Virus record (IMG/VR): IMGVR_UViG_3300020141_000376
Span: 1-29,918 of that record
DNA length: 29,918 bases
Direction: 5' to 3' (one strand)
Source of the DNA: a virus
Of the stretch, positions 14,477 to 27,638 are shown piece by piece. Every line of letters starts with the position of its first letter. The first letter of the stretch is position 1. The position numbers and the translations under genes are program-made. Below the pieces are notes generated by a model that was not told where the DNA came from, did no database searches, and saw nothing but the letters and a program-made list of their open reading frames with translations.

Positions 14477-17400
14477 TTATTGTCTTGGGGCCTGAACCTG
14501 AGCTTGGCGCTGCTGCAGCAATCCACTGATCGGGTCGTTCGGGAACATCGCAGGATACATCAGTTGAATGTTGGGCGCGCCACCGGGAGCCGCAGCAGGC
14601 GCTGTTGGCAGACGTGGGTTGAAGTTCGTTCCACGTGTAGGCGGAGCAGGCGGCATGGCTTTGAGCATCTTCTGGGCGCTTGTTCCGGGAACCACGGGCA
14701 GGTTACCCAGATTGCCGACATCTTCTGGCTGATCACCCATTGCTGCTTGCGCAGTTGTTTGCACCGCTGCACGGGTAATATTTTCAGGAAGATACGCGGA
14801 CTTTGGAATACCAATCTTCTCTAACTCCGCGGCAAGTTTCTTGGCTTCAGCAGGTGTGCCTACATGCGTAATCCGTTTGGCAAATTCTGCGTCTTCCAGC
14901 GCTCTTGTGAAGATGCGCTGATAAATCTGGTTCTCCAGACCACCAGCCATACGCAGCATGACCGCCAAAGCACCCGTGGAGGGGTTAATTCGGCCCACAG
15001 CGGCCTCGCGGGCCGTGGTTGTGAGGAACTGGATACCCGCGCCAAATAAACGCTTCATGGCTTGATCTGTCGATTCAAACGCAGGGATCTGTCCGGTCAC
15101 GTCGGCAAATGCATTAACACGGCGCTGCAAATCAGCCAAGGTTTTGAGGTCGTCCAAGTGCGCTGTATTTTTGAACAGGACCTTAAGGGATGCTTCGTTG
15201 TTGTCGATGAACGACTTAAGCGCGCCACCTTTTTGGGCACCACCAGTTGCCACATCAAACACAGAGCGGCGCAGAGCAGCCAACATCTCTGGATCTTTTT
15301 CGATTCCGCGAACCAAAGTGCTCATGGTTGCAGGATCACGCAGGGCAGTTTGCAGTGTTTGTGAGGGATCAGCACCGGGACGGGTAGCCTTGGCTAACAA
15401 GCTGTCAAGCTCTTGGTCCTTAGCGTTGACTCGGCGGGTGTCAAGCTCACCCATACGCTTTACGTAATCGTCGGCAAACTTCACTTCGTCTTGCAGCTTC
15501 ATCTGCACGTTGGCAGGCAACGCATCAACAATGTTTTTGTTCTTGTCCAGAACTTGGCGGATTTTCTTGGGGTCAACCAAGCCATTAGCATCAACAACGT
15601 TTTTGCTACGCAGCCAATCGATAGTTCCGCGCTCTAAAAGTGAGTTAGCTTGTGGGGAACCGCTTAAGCCCAGTTGCAACTGTTTTAAATTGTCAGCAGT
15701 AGAAAATGCAGTCTGGAGCAAGCGCTCGTTGGGCAAGAGGAACTCATCTCCGCCACGGGTCTTCTGTGTGAGCAGCAGTGGCAAGTTCTTTTCGTAGGCA
15801 GCAGCATAGTCCTCTAAGACCATTTTCATGCCGTCATACTCCTGCTTGATCCTTGGCACGTTATTCAGCACAAGGCCTTCAATATCCTTGTAGACGGCGT
15901 TGCCTGTGTCGATGTAACGCTGTGCATCTTGAATGCGGCTACTGCCGCGCTTCATGGAGCCGTTGTAGTTGATTACAGACTGATTGCGGAAGCGCATAGC
16001 AGACTGCAAGTAGTCAAGCGCCTCGGGTAAGTTCAAATCAACAGCCGTGTTGGCCTCAGCAATACGTGCTGCATCTGCACGAAGTTGTGTAGGATTAATC
16101 GTAATATTGCGTCCGGGACCACCCAGATTACGAATCGTAATATTTCCTTTGGCATCTGGAGGAGGAAGCAGTTCTCCAAAGCCTGCTTGTTTTTTCCCAG
16201 CTTTTGCCTGCCCTTGAACCGCTTTTATCAAATCCTCACTGATTGTTGACAAGGTTTTTGGATCAATTAATTTACCTAAACTTTGAAGCTGGTCATTAAG
16301 CGTCTGTTCTGTCAACTGAGCTAGGGTGTCCGCCTCTAATTTTTGCCGTGCAATTTCTTGTGTGCGCACAAACTTTTGCAGCAAACGAATAGGCTCAGGC
16401 ACTTGAAGACTTGCAGAGGGACGCTCAGGCGTGTATTTGGCAATTAGTTCCTTGGCTGCTTCTTCAATGTCACGTGCGGGGAACAGGGATTTACCTTGGT
16501 CACGTGTAGGCATCGGCAGACCTTCTGGCGACACAGCTTGCTTCAAACCCATACGGCGCAGAATATCACCGCGTGCCTTGGAGTCCATCTCCATGCGGGC
16601 CATCAGCGTGCCGCGCAATTCATCGTTGAGCAAGTCAATGTTCTGTGGTCCGAGGCGCTCGGAGATTGACATTACTTCCGCGTCTGTCAGGTCCTTTTGG
16701 CTTTTGAGCAAGCTCTCAAAGAACTGCTGACGATCTGCTTGGGCCGCGGTGAACGCTTCTTGAATCGGCTTGCGTGCTTCTGGAGAGAAGCTTGCAAACA
16801 AACTGTCCAGCGCTTGCTGGTTTTTGTTGATGCGCTCTTTAGTGATCTCAAGTTCCTTGGGGCCAAGCTGCTGCAAGAGTTCTGCTTTGCGCTGCACCAA
16901 GGGGGAATACATTGTCTTCTCAGCAGCATCAAACATGAAACCCGCATTTGCGACGCGGGGATCAGCCAGAGCAGCTTCAAGTTGCTTTAATGCTTGCTGT
17001 GCTTCGGGGCTCTCGGAGATTGGGCCAAACACCTGTGCCAACTTGCTCTCAGCACGCTTCATCAGCATGTTTGGAATCACGTTGATGATAGGCAGCTTGT
17101 ACATGCCGGGCAAGCCCTCAAGCGTTTCTCTTTCAATCTCACCAAGGCCGCTAGATACGCCCTTGATTTTGTCAGACATAAACTTGAAACCTCGTACAGA
17201 GGGCAAGTTTGCAGCAGCTACAGGAAGACCGATAAATGCGGCTGCAGGCAGCAACTCTTCATAAATCTTCTTGTAGGGGTTGCTGTCGTCTACTGTTTCT
17301 TTAACCGTTTGACGAAGTCCTTCGTACCCTGCACCAAACGCGATGTCCAGTGCTGCAGCCGTTCTCGGACTTTGTTGAACATATTTGATAGCATCATTTG

Positions 17401-17851
17401 CAATTCCTTTAAGTATGCCTGTCGCGGGCGCAGCCGCAGAGACAAGCGGTCTAACAGACCCTGCATAGGCAAGAATGCCAGTGAAGGGCATGGTTCCACC
17501 AACGCCTTCGCCTACAGCGCGGGCGTAGCGCTCTTCAACGTTCCTTGGGGCTTGTGCGCCTTTGTTAAAGAGATTGGTGAATTGGAATACTTGTTTCTCA
17601 TCCATTCCCATGCCCTTGCCGATAAGGCGCTGAGCAGCATCAGGAATAGCAAAGAGGGCCGAGTTGAAGCCCCATGAAAGATTGTTCAGCAGGCCCGATA
17701 CGCGGTCCCCGCCTTGTGTTTGAACATCCGGTGCAGCCGGGCCACCGGCTCGGGGGTCGGTGGTTGCAGTAGGAACGCCCTCAGCACGACCAACAACCTC
17801 ACCGGTTGCAAAGTCAACCATCTCACCACGGGAATTCATCAAGGTTGGCAT
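14477..17851 (-). CDS. large virion protein, candidate internal/ejection protein (1124 aa)
   Basis: A very long protein starting MPTLMNSRGEMVDFATGEVV. Residues 60-215 hold several small hydrophobic/Ala-rich helices (TMPFTGILAYAGSVRPLVSA and LLPAAAFIGLPVAAANLPSV), then a long stretch of coiled-coil helices rich in Lys, Glu, Gln, Ala and Leu (about 240-1000), and a Pro-rich tail ending NDPISGLLQQRQAQVQAPRQ. No lysozyme or transglycosylase motif is visible. Long helical proteins with membrane-like segments in the tail region of podoviruses act as internal virion (ejection) proteins that form the DNA channel; this is the most likely role. It overlaps the upstream gene by 1 nt (TAATG). Confidence 0.65.
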   Translation of the reverse strand: MPTLMNSRGEMVDFATGEVVGRAEGVPTATTDPRAGGPAAPDVQTQGGDRVSGLLNNLSWGFNSALFAIPDAAQRLIGKGMGMDEKQVFQFTNLFNKGAQAPRNVEERYARAVGEGVGGTMPFTGILAYAGSVRPLVSAAAPATGILKGIANDAIKYVQQSPRTAAALDIAFGAGYEGLRQTVKETVDDSNPYKKIYEELLPAAAFIGLPVAAANLPSVRGFKFMSDKIKGVSSGLGEIERETLEGLPGMYKLPIINVIPNMLMKRAESKLAQVFGPISESPEAQQALKQLEAALADPRVANAGFMFDAAEKTMYSPLVQRKAELLQQLGPKELEITKERINKNQQALDSLFASFSPEARKPIQEAFTAAQADRQQFFESLLKSQKDLTDAEVMSISERLGPQNIDLLNDELRGTLMARMEMDSKARGDILRRMGLKQAVSPEGLPMPTRDQGKSLFPARDIEEAAKELIAKYTPERPSASLQVPEPIRLLQKFVRTQEIARQKLEADTLAQLTEQTLNDQLQSLGKLIDPKTLSTISEDLIKAVQGQAKAGKKQAGFGELLPPPDAKGNITIRNLGGPGRNITINPTQLRADAARIAEANTAVDLNLPEALDYLQSAMRFRNQSVINYNGSMKRGSSRIQDAQRYIDTGNAVYKDIEGLVLNNVPRIKQEYDGMKMVLEDYAAAYEKNLPLLLTQKTRGGDEFLLPNERLLQTAFSTADNLKQLQLGLSGSPQANSLLERGTIDWLRSKNVVDANGLVDPKKIRQVLDKNKNIVDALPANVQMKLQDEVKFADDYVKRMGELDTRRVNAKDQELDSLLAKATRPGADPSQTLQTALRDPATMSTLVRGIEKDPEMLAALRRSVFDVATGGAQKGGALKSFIDNNEASLKVLFKNTAHLDDLKTLADLQRRVNAFADVTGQIPAFESTDQAMKRLFGAGIQFLTTTAREAAVGRINPSTGALAVMLRMAGGLENQIYQRIFTRALEDAEFAKRITHVGTPAEAKKLAAELEKIGIPKSAYLPENITRAAVQTTAQAAMGDQPEDVGNLGNLPVVPGTSAQKMLKAMPPAPPTRGTNFNPRLPTAPAAAPGGAPNIQLMYPAMFPNDPISGLLQQRQAQVQAPRQ

Positions 17852-20214
17852 TATTGGTTTCCTATCAGGCCACGCAGTTGAGTAGGATTAAATTGTTGAA
17901 CGCTGTTGTTTGGCATTCGGACAAACACCGTCGCTTTTGGATCTTGCAACTTACCAATGGTACTACCAAGGAAGTTAAACATCACGCGTTGGCTGTCTTT
18001 ATCTGCAGGAATCACAAACGGGTCGTTCTGTGTGCCGGTATTGGGCGTGCGCATTGCGTAATCGTTGCTCTCGTATCCCAATTGGGTCAACACCTGCTGA
18101 CGTGCGTTACGCAACATTGCTTCGGTACTTGCAAACCCCTTTGCCGCAAGTTCCTTGTTCTGGAAGAAGGCAGTCGGGTTAGAAATACCCTTGGCATTGT
18201 CACGAACCCACTCTTGCTCTTGCACAGCAACGCGGCCGCCATCGTTGGCAGAAGCGATGTTCTTCAAAATAGAGTTTAGACCTGTCTGTATGCGGGTGGC
18301 AGCATCCGCCTGATTCACGTCAGGACGTACCAGCCCTGTTGGATCAATAGGAACAATCAGGTTGTTAACCTTGTCTTGGAACCATGTGCCGGGGCTGTAC
18401 AGGCTTGTATATGTACCTTTAAGGTTGTCTAAGGTAGACAAGCTGTTATCTAAGGAACGCAAAGTGTTTGTAAGCTTGACGCGCTCACCCTTGTCTGTTT
18501 CCACAGATGTTGGCGCTTGTCCGCGGTTCTCGACATAAGGGTTGTCGGTATCACGTAATGTAAAGCGGCTCTGTAGAGCACTCTGCACTGTTGGATCTTT
18601 TGGATCAATTGACACGCCAAGGAAGCTGCCGTCCTTGGTTTTAGCAATTCGCAAACCGCCACCGCCGTCTTCGACAATAGGTGTGCCGGAGCCCTTCTTA
18701 ATTTGCTCCAACAACAAGCGGAAGTCGCCATCGAGCACTTTCATCTTGATCTGCTGAGCATACTTGTCTTGCTCTTGAACATCGCTGAATGCTTGCGACA
18801 AGGCAGTAGACTTGATCTTGAGATCGCGGTCCTTGGCCTGTGCTACGAGAGCAGCAAATCCTTTTGGAATGCCTGCGGAAGCTTCACCAACAGCCATCGC
18901 AAATGTAGGCTGACGGCTAGACGCTAATTTGAAGCCAGCATCTGCCAGCAACAAAAGTGCATTCGTCTTCATGTCTTCTTTGTTGTCGCCCAAAATCTCA
19001 GAGAACAAAGGAGCCAACTCAGCGTAGCCTTCCTTGACCCGTTCGCCACGGGTCTTTTCCTTGATTGCCGCTTTGATAAATTCCTGTGTTGATTTAACAG
19101 GTGCTTGCGCGTCAAGTTCTGCTTGCGTTGCAAACTCAGTAGGACTGACAGGGGCCATGTCCATGGGCTTGAATGCAGGCTTTTCTGCAACAGGTGCTGC
19201 AGGAGGAGGTGCCGCTTGTTGGGCACTAGAAGGCATTCTGTCAATTGCAGACAGTTGTGCCATCTTGTCGTCGTAAGAGGCTTGCTGCTCAGGAGACATC
19301 GGCGTGCTGGAATCCTTCATAAAAGGAAGTGCCGATAAAGCACCAGTGCCAAGAGCTAAGGCAGGAGACATGCGAGACAAAGCTTCTGCCACACGTGGGT
19401 ATTCTTGTGCCGTCCGCTGCACACCCATTTTGATGCCTTCAGTAAACGTAGGGCTCATCAAAGGACCCATCGTTGTATACGGAGCCAGTTGTGTGCCTGC
19501 ACCTTGAACAATCGTGCCGGCAGGCCCTTGGACCAAGGTCTCTCGTCCTTGCACCGACAAAGGCATAGGAGGGCTACCGCCTGTAACGCGCTGCACAGTA
19601 GGCTGAGCGCGCATGGTCAGGTTGCCCAAGTATTGATTCATCGCAGGGCCGTATTGAGCGGCCTTGTCACCCATGAATTGGGCAGCACGTGTGAACGGTG
19701 TAATGAACGCGCCTGCAGCCGCCGTAATTGGGGGCATGCCATCAGGGGTAGGCGGAGCCTGCTCAGCCCCGCCCTGCGGAAAAGGGCCAGCGCCCTCCAT
19801 TCCGGGAGGCATTCCTTGTGGTGGCATACCGCCCTGATCACCTTGAGGAGGCATCATGGGAGGCGGAGCCATCTGTTGGCCCTGTGGCAGTGCACCGATA
19901 CCGCCTTGTGGCGCGGCCAGTTGTGCTTGCAACAAAGCTAAAACTTCTGGGGGTGTTTCCATGGCGGCTTCTTCGCCAACCATTTGCGCTAACTCTTGTA
20001 CACGTGCATTGGTAGAACGCATGTCCCCGCGCAAAGTATTCATCAAGATTTCAGGATTCTGAGGCGTGCGCGCCATCTGAGGCATGTCTGTCTCTGGCTC
20101 CTCTGGCATCTCTTCGGGCATTTCATCTTCAAACCCAGCCATGATGCCGCTGTTACGTGACTCTTTTGACAGAGGCATCGCAAACATGGCACGCTTCAAA
20201 ATCTCATTCTTCAT
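17851..20214 (-). CDS. virion protein, Met/Pro/Gln-rich N-terminus (787 aa)
   Basis: This 787-residue protein has an acidic, Pro/Met-rich start (residues 25-50), a PPPMMPPQGDQGGMPP-type low-complexity stretch (about residues 110-170), an Ala/Gly-rich region, and then a mainly helical body rich in Lys, Glu and Ala to the C-terminal LRGLIGNQ. A run near residue 320 (SSAQQAAPPPAAPVAEKPA) forms a flexible linker. No enzyme motif is seen. Low-complexity, Met-rich proteins of this size in tail gene clusters are commonly internal virion or scaffold-like components; ejection protein is the best inference. It is separated from the upstream gene by only 9 nt. Confidence 0.6.
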   Translation of the reverse strand: MKNEILKRAMFAMPLSKESRNSGIMAGFEDEMPEEMPEEPETDMPQMARTPQNPEILMNTLRGDMRSTNARVQELAQMVGEEAAMETPPEVLALLQAQLAAPQGGIGALPQGQQMAPPPMMPPQGDQGGMPPQGMPPGMEGAGPFPQGGAEQAPPTPDGMPPITAAAGAFITPFTRAAQFMGDKAAQYGPAMNQYLGNLTMRAQPTVQRVTGGSPPMPLSVQGRETLVQGPAGTIVQGAGTQLAPYTTMGPLMSPTFTEGIKMGVQRTAQEYPRVAEALSRMSPALALGTGALSALPFMKDSSTPMSPEQQASYDDKMAQLSAIDRMPSSAQQAAPPPAAPVAEKPAFKPMDMAPVSPTEFATQAELDAQAPVKSTQEFIKAAIKEKTRGERVKEGYAELAPLFSEILGDNKEDMKTNALLLLADAGFKLASSRQPTFAMAVGEASAGIPKGFAALVAQAKDRDLKIKSTALSQAFSDVQEQDKYAQQIKMKVLDGDFRLLLEQIKKGSGTPIVEDGGGGLRIAKTKDGSFLGVSIDPKDPTVQSALQSRFTLRDTDNPYVENRGQAPTSVETDKGERVKLTNTLRSLDNSLSTLDNLKGTYTSLYSPGTWFQDKVNNLIVPIDPTGLVRPDVNQADAATRIQTGLNSILKNIASANDGGRVAVQEQEWVRDNAKGISNPTAFFQNKELAAKGFASTEAMLRNARQQVLTQLGYESNDYAMRTPNTGTQNDPFVIPADKDSQRVMFNFLGSTIGKLQDPKATVFVRMPNNSVQQFNPTQLRGLIGNQ

Positions 20215-20223
20215 GATGCGTCC

Positions 20224-21327
20224 TTAAAACAGTCCACCAGCGGTCTTTGCTGCCGCTGCTGTAGACAAAATACCTGTGCCTAAACCAGCAATTTGCTGGA
20301 AGGGGCTTGGAGTTGCTTGTGAGGAAGTCGTAACTCCCATCTGAGTAGACGGCGCGCCCTTATAGATGTCAGACAAGAAGCCCAACTGCTGATACGGCTG
20401 CATGTTTTGCTGCAACTGATTTTGGCGCTGTGCATCCAACTCGGCTTGCTGTTGTTTCTGCTGAGTAGAACCAAGGTTGAACAAGAAGTTGACGTCTTGC
20501 TGGCCCATGCCTTGTGCAGCTTGACCCAAAGCAGCGCTTTGTGAACCAAGACCTGCTTGTTGCATGCCCAGAGAGCCCAAACCTTGTGCAAGCTGTGAGC
20601 CCACACCAAACTGCTGCGCGGCCAACGAGCCAATACCTTGACCAAGGTTACCCAATTGGTTGTAACCGGCCATTTGTGCTTGCTGTTGCTGCTGTGCAGT
20701 AGACAAAGCTTGACCGTAGCCCTGTTGCATGGCGTTTGCAATCGCTTGGTTTTGTGTTTGAGCCAAGTTGCGGCCCAACTCAGCACGCTGAATGCCTTCA
20801 CGGGAACCACCAAAAGCACCTGATTTAACAGCCTGTGCTTGTAAGCCCTGACCTTGGATCTGGGCTTGACGATTCATCTCACTCAACTGACCTTGCAATG
20901 CCAAGTTCATGAACGGATTCATGTACTGGGAGATCTGCTGCTGACCAATAGGTTGTGTTGCGCCTAAAGTGCCTTGAGCCGCGATTCCTTGCAAACCTTG
21001 CGCAGCATCGTATTGATTGCGTGTGTCCGCACCGCGAAGTACATCAACGCCAGTGGCTACGGCCTGCTGACCTTGGCCTAACTGGCCATAAGCATTGGTC
21101 ATGTAAGGCTGATAAGCACCAATACCTTCTTGACCCCCGCGAATGGCGTTGAGTTGGTTTCCCGACATCCCCGCAATTTGGTAATTGGGGGTCAGGAAGT
21201 TGCCTTGGCTGGCTGCAAGGTTGGTTGCATCTACTTGTGCTTTCGCACTTTCTAACAACCCAAGTTTTTGCGCCTCAATCTCGGGCGCTTCGCGAATAAA
21301 CTGTGATTGGGATAGGACGTCTGCCAT
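20224..21327 (-). CDS. Gln/Gly/Ala-rich virion protein (367 aa)
   Basis: This 367-residue protein is dominated by Gln, Ala, Gly and Leu, with segments such as QGYGQALSTAQQQQQAQMAG, and Q-rich repeats over most of residues 90-310. The motif AVKSGAFGGSREG (about residue 165) precedes a Gln-rich helix and is one I recall from internal core proteins of phages resembling the HTVC010P group. The ending is ILSTAAAAKTAGG. The codon use is uneven because of the Gln runs. It is probably an elongated structural or ejection protein. The open frame on the complement is a shadow. Confidence 0.65.
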   Translation of the reverse strand: MADVLSQSQFIREAPEIEAQKLGLLESAKAQVDATNLAASQGNFLTPNYQIAGMSGNQLNAIRGGQEGIGAYQPYMTNAYGQLGQGQQAVATGVDVLRGADTRNQYDAAQGLQGIAAQGTLGATQPIGQQQISQYMNPFMNLALQGQLSEMNRQAQIQGQGLQAQAVKSGAFGGSREGIQRAELGRNLAQTQNQAIANAMQQGYGQALSTAQQQQQAQMAGYNQLGNLGQGIGSLAAQQFGVGSQLAQGLGSLGMQQAGLGSQSAALGQAAQGMGQQDVNFLFNLGSTQQKQQQAELDAQRQNQLQQNMQPYQQLGFLSDIYKGAPSTQMGVTTSSQATPSPFQQIAGLGTGILSTAAAAKTAGGLF

Positions 21328-21330
21328 GTT

Positions 21331-24300
21331 TTAACCTCGTGCTGCGTTCTTTTCAAGTTGATTCATTAGCGCATACATGCGTTTTGCACCTGCGCGTCTG
21401 TCGCCTTTGCCCGCACCGCGAACGGCTTTGGCAGTCATTACGAATTCGCCGTCAGACAGCATTGCAGGGATTGAATCAGAGGTCGCGGTCCCCGGGCCAT
21501 CAATTTGACCGGTACGTCTAGGATAACCGCCCTGAGCCAAACCTGCAATACCGCCCATGTTCATATTTGAAGGCGTTGCCACAGGCATGCGTTGCATCTG
21601 GCTGGGCACTTGTGGAGGGATAGCCATTTTAGGCATCAATCCAGTGATCCCGCCAGTATACGGAGACATTGTTCTGCTAAGCGGCCCTGTTGGGAACGTA
21701 GGGGTGTTGCGCGTAAAGAGATACTCGCCTCCGGGTACTCCGGCGACCCTTGGATCAATATTAGCGGTGCCGGGAGTACGGACCGTAATGGGAGTCACCT
21801 TAGGCGGTACATATGGAGGCTCTGCCACCTCCCGCGGAATAGGAGGTGTGACCACTGGTGGCAAAGTTACAGGTGGAATCACAGGTGGAGGAGTTACCAC
21901 GGGCGGTGTGACCACAGGAGGAGTCACCACCGGCGGAGTCACCACAGGAGGAGTTACGGGTGGTGTAACTACGGGCGGTGTGACCACAGGAGGAGTAACA
22001 GGAGGAGTAACAGGTGGAGTCACCACAGGAGGAGTAACCACAGGAGGAGTTACTGGAGGAGTTACTGGAGGAGTCACCACAGGAGGAGTCACCACAGGAG
22101 GAGTCACCACAGGAGGAGTGACATCAGGTGGCGTGACATCAGGAGGAGTCACCACAGGCGGAGTTACCGCAGGAGGAGTTACCGCAGGAGGAGTAACTAC
22201 AGGAGGAGTTACCGCAGGAGTCACCACAGGAGGAGTGACATCAGGTGTCGTAACCTCAGGAGGTGTAACCACAGAAGGACCTACAACAACAGGGCCTGTT
22301 ATTCCTCCGGTAGTTGTTACCGTTGGAGTTGTTGTTACCGTTGGAGTTGTTACCGTTGGCGTAGTTGATGCGGGAGTTAAAGGGGTAACCAAAGAAGCAA
22401 TTCCACCATCAGCAGGCGTAGGCGATACAGTTAATGTATCCGCGGCCCCTGCCACTTGATCAGGCGTAAGTGTCGCTCCATTAACCGTTAATGTATCTGC
22501 GGCTCCCGCCACTTGATCAGGCGTAAGCGTTTGACCGCCAACGGTCAATGGCGTGTAGGGTGCATTGACTACGGTGCTAGTATCAGTACCAGATATAGTA
22601 GCTAGATCATCAGCAGTAAAGGGTGTAATGCCAATAGTATTTCCAGCAGGACCCGCATCTAAACTCCCCGCCACGGGTGCGCCAACTTCCCAAGCGTTTG
22701 CAGCAGGATTCCATGTGGCTTGTCCTGCATCTACTTGATCTACCGTAGCTAAAACTGTGTCGGGAGTTGAGTAAAAAGGATTGACCACATCTGGGTTTTC
22801 AGCAAACCCGGGAGTCCCACTTACATCTACCCCAAAGCCACCCCCGCCGCCGCCAATATCAAAATCAGAATTGAAATCACCGCCGTAGTCTTGGCTGACC
22901 ACCGAGAAGTCGTCATCACGGAAAGCAAACTCAGGTAACCCTGTATTAGGATTAATCGTGCCACGGCCACCCATGCGTTTTAGCATTTGTGCTTCTGCAG
23001 GATTAATGTGCGCCAACATCGTATCGCCGTCACGGCCCATCTTAGCCAAATCAGCAAGGCCCCCTTGAGCCATGCCCGTAGGCTTAAGAACAGAGCCACC
23101 GTAGTAATTGACACCGGGCAGGTTTTGAACATAGAAACGGTTGGGGTTCTTGCTCATCAAATCACGTGCTGATCCGGGGCCCCCGGTCAACATGTCTTGG
23201 AAAGGCGAAGGAGGCACGCTCTTAGGGCTAAAGCCACCGAACGCACCAATTGCACCAATACCAACCGCGGTCATCGGACCGTAAGTAGATAACAGTCCGG
23301 GCATCGCTGCTTTGTATGCGTTTTGATACGCTGCCTCGCGCATGGCAGGCGTTGCATCAGGAATACGTGCTGCCAAATCTGTAACAGCTTTTGCCGCTGC
23401 ATCTTGAGCCGCGCCCATACCCTGCTGTTGAATGCCAGAAGGAGAGATATTCCTGCTGTAAAAATCCTTAGCACTGTCAAAAAAGCCGGGCTGCTGATTG
23501 GACATAATTCCCGTCTTGTCAAAAGAACCGGGGAACTGCGTAGCATCTGCTGCGTTACCAATAGCGGGGGCAATTACATTTCCTGTTGCAGCAGTTGGCA
23601 TAGCAGGAGCTTGAGCGCTAATAGGGGGAGCAACAGTGTTACCAACGGAGGCGGTTGTAGCGCTCGCATTGCCCATAGCAGTGTTGGTCAAAGGCGATTC
23701 ACCAAAAGCACCATATTGTGTGGCGGTTGGGGCAAAAGCATCTGCTGTAGGAACAGATAAGGGGGCCGCAGAAGGGGCAGTCAAAGGAGCCGCAGTGGGC
23801 GCTTGCACAGGTGCCGATGCTTGAGGCATCTTGGCAAACTCAGCAGTACGAGCAGCATCGCGAGCAGTGTTTGTCGTAACATCTGCCATAGGAGCAGGTG
23901 TGCCCGAAATAGCAGTTGTGAATTTGTCTACTTGGCCCTGCAATGCTTGCGAAGGAGTTAAACCCGCGCCAGAGTAACTACCCGCCTCAAAAGCACCAGC
24001 ACCGCCAGTAAAGCCTGCTGTTGCACCAGCAGTCAAACCACCCATCGCACCAGCTTTCAAAGCTTGGCTTAAGTTTCCGCCAGCAAGGAGCGTAGAACCT
24101 GCGCTGCCCACAAAACCACTGACCGCGGCTACCGCAGCAGTGGAGGTAGCACCCATGAAAGACGCTGCAGCGGGGCCTAAAAAGAAACCAAGGGCCACCG
24201 TGGTAACAATACGGCCCACGGTGCTGCTTGCAAACTTCTTGACAGCATTACCAACAGCCTTAAAGGCCTTTCCAATAAAGCCCAGAAAAAACTCAGGTAA

Positions 24301-24861
24301 ACCTGTGACAGGGTTAATTGTTCCGCTACCGCCCTTGCGGCGAAGCATGCGTGCTTCGGCAGGAGTAATGTGGGCCAACATGGTGTCGCCGTTGCGGCCA
24401 TAGCTTGCAATAGCCTTAGCCACTGGTGTCAACTCAGCAATACCGCCTTTGGCAAACGACTGCACGCCCGTAGGCGCACCAATCATCTGGTCCACGGCCA
24501 TGTTCAACGCAGCAAAGAACTGTGCATCAAACTGCTCTGGCAAGATTTCGTCAGGCGCGCCCATCTCCTTGTACTTAGCGCGAATCTCGGCGTACTTCTC
24601 TGGGTTAGCCAGAATCTCATCAACCATGTTGTTGAGCAAATCAAGCGCCTCAGGAGGCATTTCAATTTGTTCTAGCGCAGACCTAAACGCAGCTACCTCT
24701 TCAGGAGCCGCCTGCTCCGCACCCGCCAACATCTGGTCGCCAAACTCCTTTGGAGATACGGTCTGACGCATCTGCTCATACACCGCCATCGTGTTTGGAT
24801 CGGCAAAGGGATTTGCGCCTTGTTGTGGCATTTCCATTGCGGCTTGAGGTGCTGTGGCCAT
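21331..24861 (-). CDS. giant low-complexity virion protein with TPPVV repeats (1176 aa)
   Basis: This 1176-residue protein shows five zones: an acidic helical N-terminus (1-135); a first KGGIAEL plus GDTMLAHITPAEA module (about 138-190); Ala/Gly-rich membrane-like helices and Ala/Pro/Thr linkers (about 195-560); a second module of the same kind (about 595-645); and then Asp/Thr/Val-rich sequence, a Thr/Pro/Val minisatellite (about 860-1005) and a conserved-looking C-terminus DSIPAMLSDGEFVMTAKAVRG (about 1125). The C-terminal box and the GGIA boxes recur in other phage virion proteins in my recollection. A structural or ejection role with a long flexible Thr/Pro stalk is most likely; enzymatic function is not indicated. 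The gene lies between fibre and Q-rich genes. Confidence 0.7.
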   Translation of the reverse strand: MATAPQAAMEMPQQGANPFADPNTMAVYEQMRQTVSPKEFGDQMLAGAEQAAPEEVAAFRSALEQIEMPPEALDLLNNMVDEILANPEKYAEIRAKYKEMGAPDEILPEQFDAQFFAALNMAVDQMIGAPTGVQSFAKGGIAELTPVAKAIASYGRNGDTMLAHITPAEARMLRRKGGSGTINPVTGLPEFFLGFIGKAFKAVGNAVKKFASSTVGRIVTTVALGFFLGPAAASFMGATSTAAVAAVSGFVGSAGSTLLAGGNLSQALKAGAMGGLTAGATAGFTGGAGAFEAGSYSGAGLTPSQALQGQVDKFTTAISGTPAPMADVTTNTARDAARTAEFAKMPQASAPVQAPTAAPLTAPSAAPLSVPTADAFAPTATQYGAFGESPLTNTAMGNASATTASVGNTVAPPISAQAPAMPTAATGNVIAPAIGNAADATQFPGSFDKTGIMSNQQPGFFDSAKDFYSRNISPSGIQQQGMGAAQDAAAKAVTDLAARIPDATPAMREAAYQNAYKAAMPGLLSTYGPMTAVGIGAIGAFGGFSPKSVPPSPFQDMLTGGPGSARDLMSKNPNRFYVQNLPGVNYYGGSVLKPTGMAQGGLADLAKMGRDGDTMLAHINPAEAQMLKRMGGRGTINPNTGLPEFAFRDDDFSVVSQDYGGDFNSDFDIGGGGGGFGVDVSGTPGFAENPDVVNPFYSTPDTVLATVDQVDAGQATWNPAANAWEVGAPVAGSLDAGPAGNTIGITPFTADDLATISGTDTSTVVNAPYTPLTVGGQTLTPDQVAGAADTLTVNGATLTPDQVAGAADTLTVSPTPADGGIASLVTPLTPASTTPTVTTPTVTTTPTVTTTGGITGPVVVGPSVVTPPEVTTPDVTPPVVTPAVTPPVVTPPAVTPPAVTPPVVTPPDVTPPDVTPPVVTPPVVTPPVVTPPVTPPVTPPVVTPPVVTPPVTPPVTPPVVTPPVVTPPVTPPVVTPPVVTPPVVTPPVVTPPPVIPPVTLPPVVTPPIPREVAEPPYVPPKVTPITVRTPGTANIDPRVAGVPGGEYLFTRNTPTFPTGPLSRTMSPYTGGITGLMPKMAIPPQVPSQMQRMPVATPSNMNMGGIAGLAQGGYPRRTGQIDGPGTATSDSIPAMLSDGEFVMTAKAVRGAGKGDRRAGAKRMYALMNQLEKNAARG
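21841..22290. repeat. TPPVV minisatellite (15-bp and 12-bp units)
   Basis: Within the 1176-aa virion gene about 25 units of TPPVV (15 bp) or TPPV (12 bp) follow one another. On the plus strand the core unit reads GGAGTCACCACAGGA. Units differ mainly at third codon positions and by TPPDV/TPPAV variants, and the TPPV units occur in pairs, suggesting slipped-strand gain and loss. All lengths keep the reading frame. The repeat also makes a long open frame on the opposite strand, an artefact. Confidence 0.9.
22309..22375. repeat. short Thr/Val tandem repeat
   Basis: Three tandem copies of an about 15-18-bp unit centred on TTACCGTTGGAGTTGTT encode TTTPTVTT-like residues in the 1176-aa protein, just N-terminal to the main TPPVV repeat. 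Copies differ by short in-frame indels. Confidence 0.7.
22431..22550. repeat. 57-bp tandem repeat
   Basis: A 57-bp unit occurs twice in tandem (22431-22487 and 22488-22544) with a fragment of a third. It encodes the 19-residue unit TLTPDQVAGAADTLTVNGA. The period is a multiple of three, so protein length can vary without frameshift. Point differences between the copies are few and mostly synonymous. Confidence 0.85.
22928..23037. repeat. copy B of a 110-bp diverged duplication
   Basis: This segment encodes DGDTMLAHINPAEAQMLK and GTINPNTGLPEF, matching copy A at 24290-24399 (NGDTMLAHITPAEARMLR and GTINPVTGLPEF). Both have the same length and frame. Both are preceded in the protein by a GG(I/L)A(E/D)L box. 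The nucleotide match is clear but diverged, so the duplication is old or maintained by selection. Confidence 0.85.
24290..24399. repeat. copy A of a 110-bp diverged duplication
   Basis: This is the N-terminal copy of the module also found at 22928-23037. It encodes NGDTMLAHITPAEARMLRRK and then GTINPVTGLPEFF. It is separated from copy B by about 1.25 kb of Ala/Pro/Thr-rich coding sequence inside the same gene. Confidence 0.85.
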
Positions 24862-24897: not shown

Positions 24898-25545
24898 TTA
24901 TGTTGGGAGTGCCGACACAAATGAAAGTGTGGCTACAACAGAAGCCGTTGATGGTTTTGTGGGCGTACCCGATGCCGCATATGTTTGAATTGTCACATCA
25001 ACATTGGTTGTAGACCAGTAAATTTGAACGTAATCCCCGGCATTCATTGACAAATAGTAGTTCCAGCCCTTGATGTCGTGAAAAGGAACGCCAGCACTTT
25101 TTCTTGCCGGCATTCCAACCAAACCTGTCGAGCCAACAATATCTGTACCGTTTTGCTTTAGCCAAATAAACACATCTTGTGGGGCGTTATCTAAGTTTTG
25201 AAGCTGCGCGCTAAACTGCAAGTTGTATATGCCCGCATTAGCTACCGTTATTTTTGAGCCAGTATCTAACGTCACTTCATTGGAAAAGTCCGTTACAGAC
25301 AGTGCCATCAACGTTGCGGTATTAATGGTTGTCGATTGGTCGGTAAAGTCTGAAAACGCGCCATACGGAAACGCAATGTATCTGCCGCCTGTGTTGCTCA
25401 ATAGCTCCGCCAACGAGTTACGCAATTGATTGAAATACAAACGCAAGACGTTTGTAAATTGATCCTGATATCGGCGCTCATACTCTTGCGTGCCCAACGG
25501 TAAGTTAGGAACAGCGGGATTAATGATCCGGTTAGACGTAGCCAT
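24898..25545 (-). CDS. tail/fibre-like protein with C-terminal jelly-roll domain
   Basis: This 215-residue protein has an N-terminal helical part (residues 1-55: YERRYQDQFTNVLRLYFNQLRN) and a C-terminal beta-rich domain (about 70-215) with AGIYNLQFSAQLQN, VFIWLKQNGTDIVGS and MNAGDYVQIYWSTTNV. This order of strands resembles the C1q/TNF-like jelly rolls at the tips of phage fibres and receptor-binding proteins. The N-terminal box recurs in phages of aquatic hosts and may anchor to the tail hub. It probably helps bind the host surface. The start overlaps the upstream stop by 1 nt (TAATG-type). Confidence 0.7.
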   Translation of the reverse strand: MATSNRIINPAVPNLPLGTQEYERRYQDQFTNVLRLYFNQLRNSLAELLSNTGGRYIAFPYGAFSDFTDQSTTINTATLMALSVTDFSNEVTLDTGSKITVANAGIYNLQFSAQLQNLDNAPQDVFIWLKQNGTDIVGSTGLVGMPARKSAGVPFHDIKGWNYYLSMNAGDYVQIYWSTTNVDVTIQTYAASGTPTKPSTASVVATLSFVSALPT

Positions 25546-27638
25546 CAGCGCCTGCCGTCCTGACGAATATCAATACGAGGCGCGCCAAGTTGCCAAGCCG
25601 TTCCGACTTGATTGGAACCAATCTTGAAGATCATTTGCCGGCCGCGCATGCGCGTATAAATCTGACCCGTAAATTCTTCCGTGATCACATAGGTAGAGCT
25701 ACTCGCCACAGGAGCACCTGCGCTGCTTGTAGAACCCGATCCAGAATTGGTCAAGCCATACAAAGTCATGTCCACCGTGGGCACCGTACCAGTAGGCGAA
25801 TTTACGGAATCACCGAACGTTAAATCGGGAAGCACTCGCCACACAAACCCAAAGTTATGGCCATCTCCAATGTCAAACTCTGACGATGAAATATAAGCAT
25901 TCAGAGCAACAGCGGTCCCTGTTTCGTTGTCATTGAGCCCTTGTTCATGGCTCACCAAATTGTAAGAATACGTTGCAGCCAAAGGAGAAGGCTGCAGGCC
26001 AGAATCTAACCACGCAGTGCGGCCCATCGTGCCGTAGTACCACACGTTTTCAAGGTAGTTGTAAATGATATATCGGCCCACTGCTGTTGCACCTTCTGCG
26101 CAGTAGAACCACCACACCTCGTTAAAACCTTCGTTGGCTCCTGCAAACACCTGCAACGATTGCACCAAGTTAATGTCTTGGAACACGTACCTGCGCAGGT
26201 CGCAATTGAGCGTCTGAATGCGGCCATCGTACATGTAGAACTTGTCCACGCCCATCCAGTACACGATGCCCGATGCTTGGACCACGGCATTTGGACCAAT
26301 AATCGATGTGCTGTCGCCAAGCAACTGGGAACCCCATACATATGGAGGGCCAAGGTACTGCAGCGAATACACGCTTGAGTCTGTGAACACCACAATCTCT
26401 TGACGCGTCTGAATTGTTGTAACAATCTCAGAACCATGCGACAAGCGAACGCTTCCCGCTTGATTAGTTGCCGTAGGTGTCCAGTTAAACGGATCATCCT
26501 GATTGGACCAACGAATTAACATTGGATCAAGCACCGCACTTCCGTAGTCATTTGTGCCAAAGACAATGATGAAACGAGAGACATCAGAAACTGTCAAAGC
26601 ATTCTGATATACCGGCACATCCACAAGGTCAGAAATGTAGACACCTGTTCCGGTAGAAGTTGTATTAACAATGTTGCCTGCGCTGTCCAACAAATTACAG
26701 GTCAACCCCGAAACTTGATAAGCATAGTATGTCGTTGCAGCAGAAATGCCCGTTGGAAGGGACGTGGTCGCTGCAAATTGAACCGCAGCACCCTCTGTCA
26801 AAGGCACTGTCAAAGTCACGACAGTGGGACTTGCGTTTGTAAACGTTACCGTTCCGCCCAAGGTATTTAAAGCAACACCGCGTGTGGTCAAACCGTTTGT
26901 GGCATCCCAGTAATACAGGCCCGCGCCCCGCGGGCCGAAGACAAGATCTTCACCGTAGTTGATTTGATTCCACAATTGCAGCGGGACAGTTGTAGCACTG
27001 CCCACGCCCCAAGCACCGCTGCCCCAGCCGCCTGCGCCCCATCCTGTTAAAGGAATAACGGTTGCAGGACCCACATTAAGTTGATATGCAGCTACAACCG
27101 ATGCTCCACCGCCGGCAGCAGCAGCATCTGTTGCATTGGCAGTAGCCGAAGCCGTGATGGTGTATGTGTTTACAGAAAGGACAGTTACTTGGTACTGAGC
27201 ATTCAACACCGCTGCAGTAATGTTGCCGCCAAGACCTACCGCTCCGCTAAACGTCACAAAATCACCGGTTACGCAGCCATGCGCAGTATCTGTGACTGTG
27301 ATGGTAGCTGAGCCATTAGTGGCTACAAACGGGTTATTGTTAATGGTTACCGTTGCGCGGATCGGGGTTACATCGTAATAAGCACCGCCAAGTTCAATGT
27401 AAAACTTTAAGTTTGTGCCAACACCAATCAGGTTGTAATTGATTAACGTCACCCAGTTCCACAGGGAACGGCACACACCCGTGAATGTTGTAGACGAAAT
27501 ACGTTGCCAGCCGCCAATACTTTCTGGGTTGCCTTGACGAAAACGGATCTTGTCGCACTCGTACCAACCACCCTCGGTGGTGTACCGTGTGTTCTCCCGG
27601 TTGACGCCCGGCTTTAACAGTATTTTTTGTAATGGCAT
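25545..27638 (-). CDS. virion tail/hub protein with Ig-like insertion (697 aa)
   Basis: This 697-residue, beta-rich protein starts MPLQKILLKPGVNRENTRYT and has EGGWYECDKIRFRQGNPESI, a box I recall from tail/hub or head-stabilising proteins of podovirus-like phages (P22 gp10 or tail-tube-like). Residues 96-183 form an inserted Ig-like or FCCH-like domain (ATITVTDTAHGCVTGDFVTF, then TYTITAS). The rest has repeated WSNQDDPFNWTP and IVVFTDSSVYSLQY elements typical of a beta-propeller-like body, ending PRIDIRQDGRR. Probable role: connector or tail nozzle component to which fibres attach. It lies directly upstream of the fibre gene. Confidence 0.75.
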   Translation of the reverse strand: MPLQKILLKPGVNRENTRYTTEGGWYECDKIRFRQGNPESIGGWQRISSTTFTGVCRSLWNWVTLINYNLIGVGTNLKFYIELGGAYYDVTPIRATVTINNNPFVATNGSATITVTDTAHGCVTGDFVTFSGAVGLGGNITAAVLNAQYQVTVLSVNTYTITASATANATDAAAAGGGASVVAAYQLNVGPATVIPLTGWGAGGWGSGAWGVGSATTVPLQLWNQINYGEDLVFGPRGAGLYYWDATNGLTTRGVALNTLGGTVTFTNASPTVVTLTVPLTEGAAVQFAATTSLPTGISAATTYYAYQVSGLTCNLLDSAGNIVNTTSTGTGVYISDLVDVPVYQNALTVSDVSRFIIVFGTNDYGSAVLDPMLIRWSNQDDPFNWTPTATNQAGSVRLSHGSEIVTTIQTRQEIVVFTDSSVYSLQYLGPPYVWGSQLLGDSTSIIGPNAVVQASGIVYWMGVDKFYMYDGRIQTLNCDLRRYVFQDINLVQSLQVFAGANEGFNEVWWFYCAEGATAVGRYIIYNYLENVWYYGTMGRTAWLDSGLQPSPLAATYSYNLVSHEQGLNDNETGTAVALNAYISSSEFDIGDGHNFGFVWRVLPDLTFGDSVNSPTGTVPTVDMTLYGLTNSGSGSTSSAGAPVASSSTYVITEEFTGQIYTRMRGRQMIFKIGSNQVGTAWQLGAPRIDIRQDGRR

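Follow-up and report, generated by a model that had tools for sequence, protein, structure and literature searches.

A TPPVV tandem array in a hypervariable, predicted disordered linker of a probable phage ejection-type protein

The window analysed here is the entire IMG/VR record IMGVR_UViG_3300020141_000376, a stretch of 29,918 bases that is probably a fragment, since its relatives lie on contigs of ~60 kb. Its minus strand includes a gene for a repeat-bearing protein of 1176 aa (21331..24861), an open reading frame with same-frame homologues in viral contigs, which is placed among DNA-delivery genes of the short-tailed-phage type. The gene upstream encodes a P22-type stabilization or particle protein (25545..27638, minus strand, phrog_3287), a short-tailed-phage marker with relatives in Pseudomonas, Pelagibacter, Roseobacter and other phages; downstream are a DNA ejection protein-like gene (20224..21327, minus strand, phrog_4287) and two further genes of the cassette that encode proteins of 787 aa (17851..20214, minus strand) and 1124 aa (14477..17851, minus strand). 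The gene order matches that of DSL-LC04 (OR003939.1), which consists of the stabilization protein, a 'tail tape measure protein', two hypothetical proteins and a 'DNA transfer protein'. Similarity to DSL-LC04 is direct for the stabilization, repeat and ejection-like proteins and for the start of the 787-aa protein, the N-terminus of which is homologous to WJZ48113.1; no direct similarity to DSL-LC04 was found for the 1124-aa protein, which is matched to the 'DNA transfer protein' by synteny only. The closest annotated homologue of the repeat protein is WJZ48115.1 of the same DSL-LC04 cassette (~50% identical at the N-terminus and 79% identical at the C-terminus), which differs in being 759 aa long and in having a GMDLSSAQGTLGGPSYA array in place of TPPVV. 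A near-identity search of named phages gave no match. The 787-aa neighbour has a poorly conserved Pro/Met/Gly-rich stretch of its own (~aa 92-146), which is unalignable to the relatives L008 and L009.

The repeat protein consists of conserved and hypervariable segments in alternation. A conserved, helical N-terminus of ~290 aa (23992..24861, minus strand), with a small-residue-rich hydrophobic helical stretch at aa 214-285, is followed by the hypervariable linker V1 (aa 300-457; 23491..23964, minus strand), a helical island (aa 458-541; 23239..23490, minus strand) that separates V1 from V2, the hypervariable linker V2 (aa 651-1100; 21562..22911, minus strand), and a conserved C-terminus of 76 aa (21334..21561, minus strand) bearing the SDSIPAMLSDGEFVMTAKAV motif known from tape measure proteins. 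The module GRNGDTMLAHITPAEARML..GTINPVTGLPEF occurs in two copies (24289..24423 and 22927..23052, both minus strand), the second 76% identical to the first, and is duplicated in the close clade only. Conservation of V2 is low in a profile of identity and occupancy, and V2 is predicted to be disordered: AlphaFold2 modelled the N-terminus and the island as confident helices, and gave pLDDT values of ~32-41 and no secondary structure across the repeat array within V2.

The array itself (21841..22266, minus strand; aa 866-1007) was parsed in frame into 19 units of 15 bp and seven of 12 bp with irregular ends, which agrees with the initial annotation of an in-frame minisatellite of about 25 such units. 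The lower end of the span proposed there (21841-22290) was confirmed, but its upper end lies ~24 bp beyond the last TPP unit. Tandem Repeats Finder (TRF) reported a period of 15, 27.4 copies and a span of 21887-22279. The units comprise 14 TPPVV, five TPPV, two TPPAV, two TPPDV, and one each of TPPEV, TPDV and TPAV. Self-match of the array at lag 15 is 0.70, compared with a best-lag mean of 0.46 and a maximum of 0.53 among 500 codon shuffles. The suggested signs of slippage are also evident: TPPV units are paired (units 15-16 and units 19-20), and a 54-bp block of TPPVV-TPPVV-TPPV-TPPV is present in two successive copies (units 13-16 and 17-20). Because the longest exact repeat within the array is only 38 bp, short reads should resolve it, and the copy number is unlikely to result from assembly collapse.

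The 19 five-codon units comprise 12 distinct DNA sequences, with variation confined to third positions and to one Val codon (changed to Ala, Asp or Glu). The number of variants and the predominance of third-position differences indicate that the array is old enough for silent sites to have diverged, and the dN/dS of 0.09 among units compared pairwise indicates that amino acids have been kept, so that the sequence of the array is not wholly free. Adjoining the main array are a VTTPTV(T) mini-array (VTTPTVTT; 22309..22367, minus strand) identified by TRF, and a 57-bp tandem duplication of a DQVAGAADTLTV-type unit (22427..22540, minus strand), with copies 79% identical; the 57-bp unit is single-copy in homologues L002 and L003.

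An open reading frame of 300 aa, rich in Gly, Val and Thr, lies opposite the array (21557-22459, plus strand). The codons ACN CCN CCN GTN GTN read as ACN ACN GGN GGN GTN on the opposite strand, and both strands are therefore open with coinciding third positions, so that the codon-position pattern alone is no proof of the coding strand. The antisense frame was set aside as a gene because the conserved flanks indicate that the minus strand codes; it probably arises incidentally from the repeat, the opposite-strand codons of which are fourfold degenerate and stop-free.

Relatives were gathered by scanning IMG/VR with the protein, an N-terminal alignment and a C-terminal alignment, and 47 distinct full-length homologous genes were extracted, the relatives compared being metagenome assemblies. 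In a conservation profile of 38 sequences, conservation is strong over the first ~290 aa and over the 76-aa C-terminus, which is near-invariant; it is moderate in the island (~aa 458-545) and almost absent from both linkers. Homologues range in full length from 643 to 1216 aa, and V2, taken as the stretch between a fixed pair of anchors, spans 21-533 aa, which bears out the expectation of the initial annotation that length would vary among relatives. Distant homologues (L254-L259, 29-39% identity) occur on contigs binned to genomes of Verrucomicrobia, Armatimonadetes, Nitrosomonadales, Gammaproteobacteria and Methylomonas, which would be phage contigs or prophages. No report on this linker was found in the literature, of which coverage was incomplete.

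Tandem arrays at the DNA level, with 60 bp as the minimum, occur in 19 of the 47 homologues, compared with 5 of the 182 remaining ORFs (200 aa or longer) in the same loci, and arrays cover 3.1% of the DNA of repeat-protein genes versus 0.37% of that of other ORFs. The enrichment (Fisher p ~6e-11; p 5e-6 when the comparison is restricted to ORFs of 600 aa or more) is given by p-values that are only indicative, because related sequences are not independent. None of the 38 TRF rows from homologues (overlapping rows counted) falls in the conserved ends, and the period is divisible by 3 in 38 of 38. On/off phase variation is thereby rejected: every unit of the TPPVV array is 15 or 12 bp, a multiple of 3 bp that leaves the frame unshifted, and the analogy drawn earlier to phase-variable tail proteins fails in this respect.

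Chemically different repeats occupy the same site in different homologues: TTPPPVV (L002), TPPPVV (L004), ATDGTT (L003), GNESVFDPGTTFNT (L016), a 22-aa unit ITARDAYVPPMDTYQP (YVPPMDTYQP) in L012, PVVP (L142), SPAPAP (L170), and others in addition to the GMDLSSAQGTLGGPSYA unit of DSL-LC04. A Pro/Val/Thr-rich character recurs in the close clade (the window, L002, L003, L004 and L016), and could reflect a preferred chemistry. Tandem repeats, mostly Gln/Ala/Gly-rich, are also found in genes just after the repeat protein in some relatives (L014 9288-11148, L129 9107-10796, L139 7189-9898, L143 7651-9571, L170 5742-8376).

Pro-rich repeats favour extended conformations, and this, together with the wide variation in linker length, is consistent with the main rival to the interpretation reached below, a possible but unlikely one: that repeat number sets the reach of an ejected protein, for example across the periplasm, and is adjusted by selection to the host envelope. 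The ejection proteins of T7 do form a tube that spans the periplasm (PMC8954989). The same linker, however, is just 21-80 aa long in several homologues, and the Ser/Thr, Asp/Gly or mixed repeats found elsewhere would not form the same rod.

Comparison of close relatives points to two ways in which the linker changes. The DNA of L003 and L016 is 96% identical up to V2 and 89% identical after it, and the repeats between are unrelated; synonymous divergence reaches 0.52 within V2, against 0.02-0.19 in the rest of the gene. Similarly, the N-termini of L129 and L132 are 98% identical and their V1 linkers are almost completely different. Both patterns look like segment replacement. The genes of L007 and L008 differ in V2 alone, by 18 substitutions and by a 12-bp indel within a Gly run and a 6-bp indel within a Ser-Thr run, both of them in-frame repeat changes. 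Copy number thus differs between these near-identical genes, and it also differs between L002 and L004. On the other hand, some genes with arrays recur without any difference in separate metagenomes (L143, L144 and L145; L113 and L115), which indicates that arrays can be stable and that copy number is not everywhere in flux.

Such changes might be taken as diversifying selection on a linker attacked by host defence or involved in a host interaction, with repeat birth and recombination as the sources of diversity. Unrelated linkers in proteins of 96-98% N-terminal identity (L003/L016, L129/L132) and local recombination-like tracts would fit this reading, which is nevertheless rather improbable: dN/dS is below 1 in every linker where it could be computed (0.5 or less), and recombination-like tracts are also present elsewhere in the same loci, as in L007 and L008 beyond 6.6 kb. 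Positive selection on the linkers was not seen by dN/dS, a measure for which the divergent linkers are saturated or poorly alignable. The tract beyond 6.6 kb (L007 6600-7650 versus L008) is a divergent one that follows several kb of near identity, lies in the downstream gene of the 787-aa type, and looks like recombination.

As to the identity of the protein, its C-terminus (aa 1103-1153) matches tape measure families in PHROGs (the best being phrog_23013, E 4.6e-8) and solved tape measure proteins (8zdo, E 1.2e-7; 8rk3, E 2.3e-5). A Pfam search of the repeat protein returned no family match, and the N-terminus had no meaningful match among PDB sequences. Fold searches of N-terminal and full models against PDB and BFVD gave no significant match, the hits being weak resemblances to helical or membrane proteins; this result excludes nothing, because the models are of modest confidence.

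The ~40-aa motif GPGTxTSDSIPAMLSDGEFVM is shared with tail tape measure proteins (phrog_23013, phrog_5448 and others; 8zdo, 8rk3), and could be read as a sign that the protein is itself the tape measure of a long tail, the length of which is set by repeat number. The motif is common to tape measure proteins and the DSL-LC04 homologue is annotated as one, but tape measure proteins are largely helical and the array is predicted to be disordered. Repeat units are gained and lost in both groups, duplication and loss of 11-aa units having been described in tape measure proteins (PMC3271669). In the window family, unlike tape measure proteins, the motif is the sole match, the linker is 21-533 aa long and predicted disordered, and the context is that of a short-tailed phage, with a P22-type stabilization protein adjoining. 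The Venkman isolate, which shares a stabilization protein and a module with the window phage, showed a short tail by TEM, although the authors who described it admit possible loss of the tail (PMC8163748). Altogether, a long-tail tape measure is hardly to be expected here. The shared module, GDTMLAHITPAEA..GTINPVTGLPEF, which is present in two copies in the window protein, is found near the start of Venkman gp46. The latter (L263 5968-6876) starts with this GDTxLAHV..GTINPVTGL module and continues with ejection-type-like sequence, as if the two were fused.

In its setting, a DNA-delivery cassette of several genes next to a stabilization protein of P22 type, and in its helical N-terminus with a hydrophobic stretch, the system resembles the ejection proteins of T7 (gp14-gp16) and P22 (gp7/gp20/gp16); it differs from them in the large disordered repeat linkers and the tape-measure-type C-terminal motif of the window protein. 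No sequence or fold match between these proteins and the window protein was found, the fold comparison being made with modest models. The repeat protein is probably an ejection-type internal virion protein of a short-tailed phage, as judged from its context and motif, which would give it a place in the virion and a role in ejection. To this extent its initial description as a virion protein probably holds.

The further proposal that the TPPVV units form a rigid or semi-rigid stalk, whether of an exposed fibre or of a head decoration, fares less well. Pro/Thr-rich stalks are known in surface proteins, and the Thr/Pro/Val repeat is in frame; on the other side, the position of the gene and its neighbours are of the ejection type, the gene has no recognisable tail-fibre identity, and the protein ends in a tape-measure-type motif rather than a receptor-binding domain. 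The region is predicted to be disordered, and homologues have different repeats and, in some, linkers of only 21-80 aa. An exposed rigid stalk is accordingly very unlikely.

On balance, the array is best explained, with a fair degree of confidence, as the form taken in one lineage by a hypervariable, disordered linker whose repeats are remade by slippage and segment exchange, the protein around it being probably of the ejection type. The work would fall to the two conserved ends, helical at the N-terminus and tape-measure-like at the C-terminus, and to the helical island between the linkers; the linkers themselves would be required only to remain soluble, disordered and in frame. Short repeats may arise and expand by replication slippage from seeds rich in Pro, Thr, Ser or Gly, repeatedly so because most in-frame insertions would be tolerated in the linker, and recombination between related phages may exchange entire linker segments. 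On this view TPPVV would be incidental, retained as an extended spacer, and neither a length ruler nor a switch. We infer slippage as the source of the repeats and tolerance as their cause. Coding-sequence minisatellites (variable tandem repeats; PMC3899988) are similar in their in-frame units, slippage and changes of copy number; the present family is unlike them in that an orthologous site holds unrelated repeats in different lineages.

A more ambitious conclusion, that this phage group keeps a dedicated site of variation in a DNA-delivery protein, with repeat birth and linker exchange selected for fit of the injected protein to different host envelopes or for escape from envelope defences, seems quite unlikely. 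In this gene family, both ends are almost frozen and the middle has been refilled repeatedly with unrelated in-frame repeats. The family thus offers a natural experiment on the latitude allowed to a DNA-delivery protein, and it warns against taking every repeat in a phage structural gene for a stalk, a ruler or a switch.
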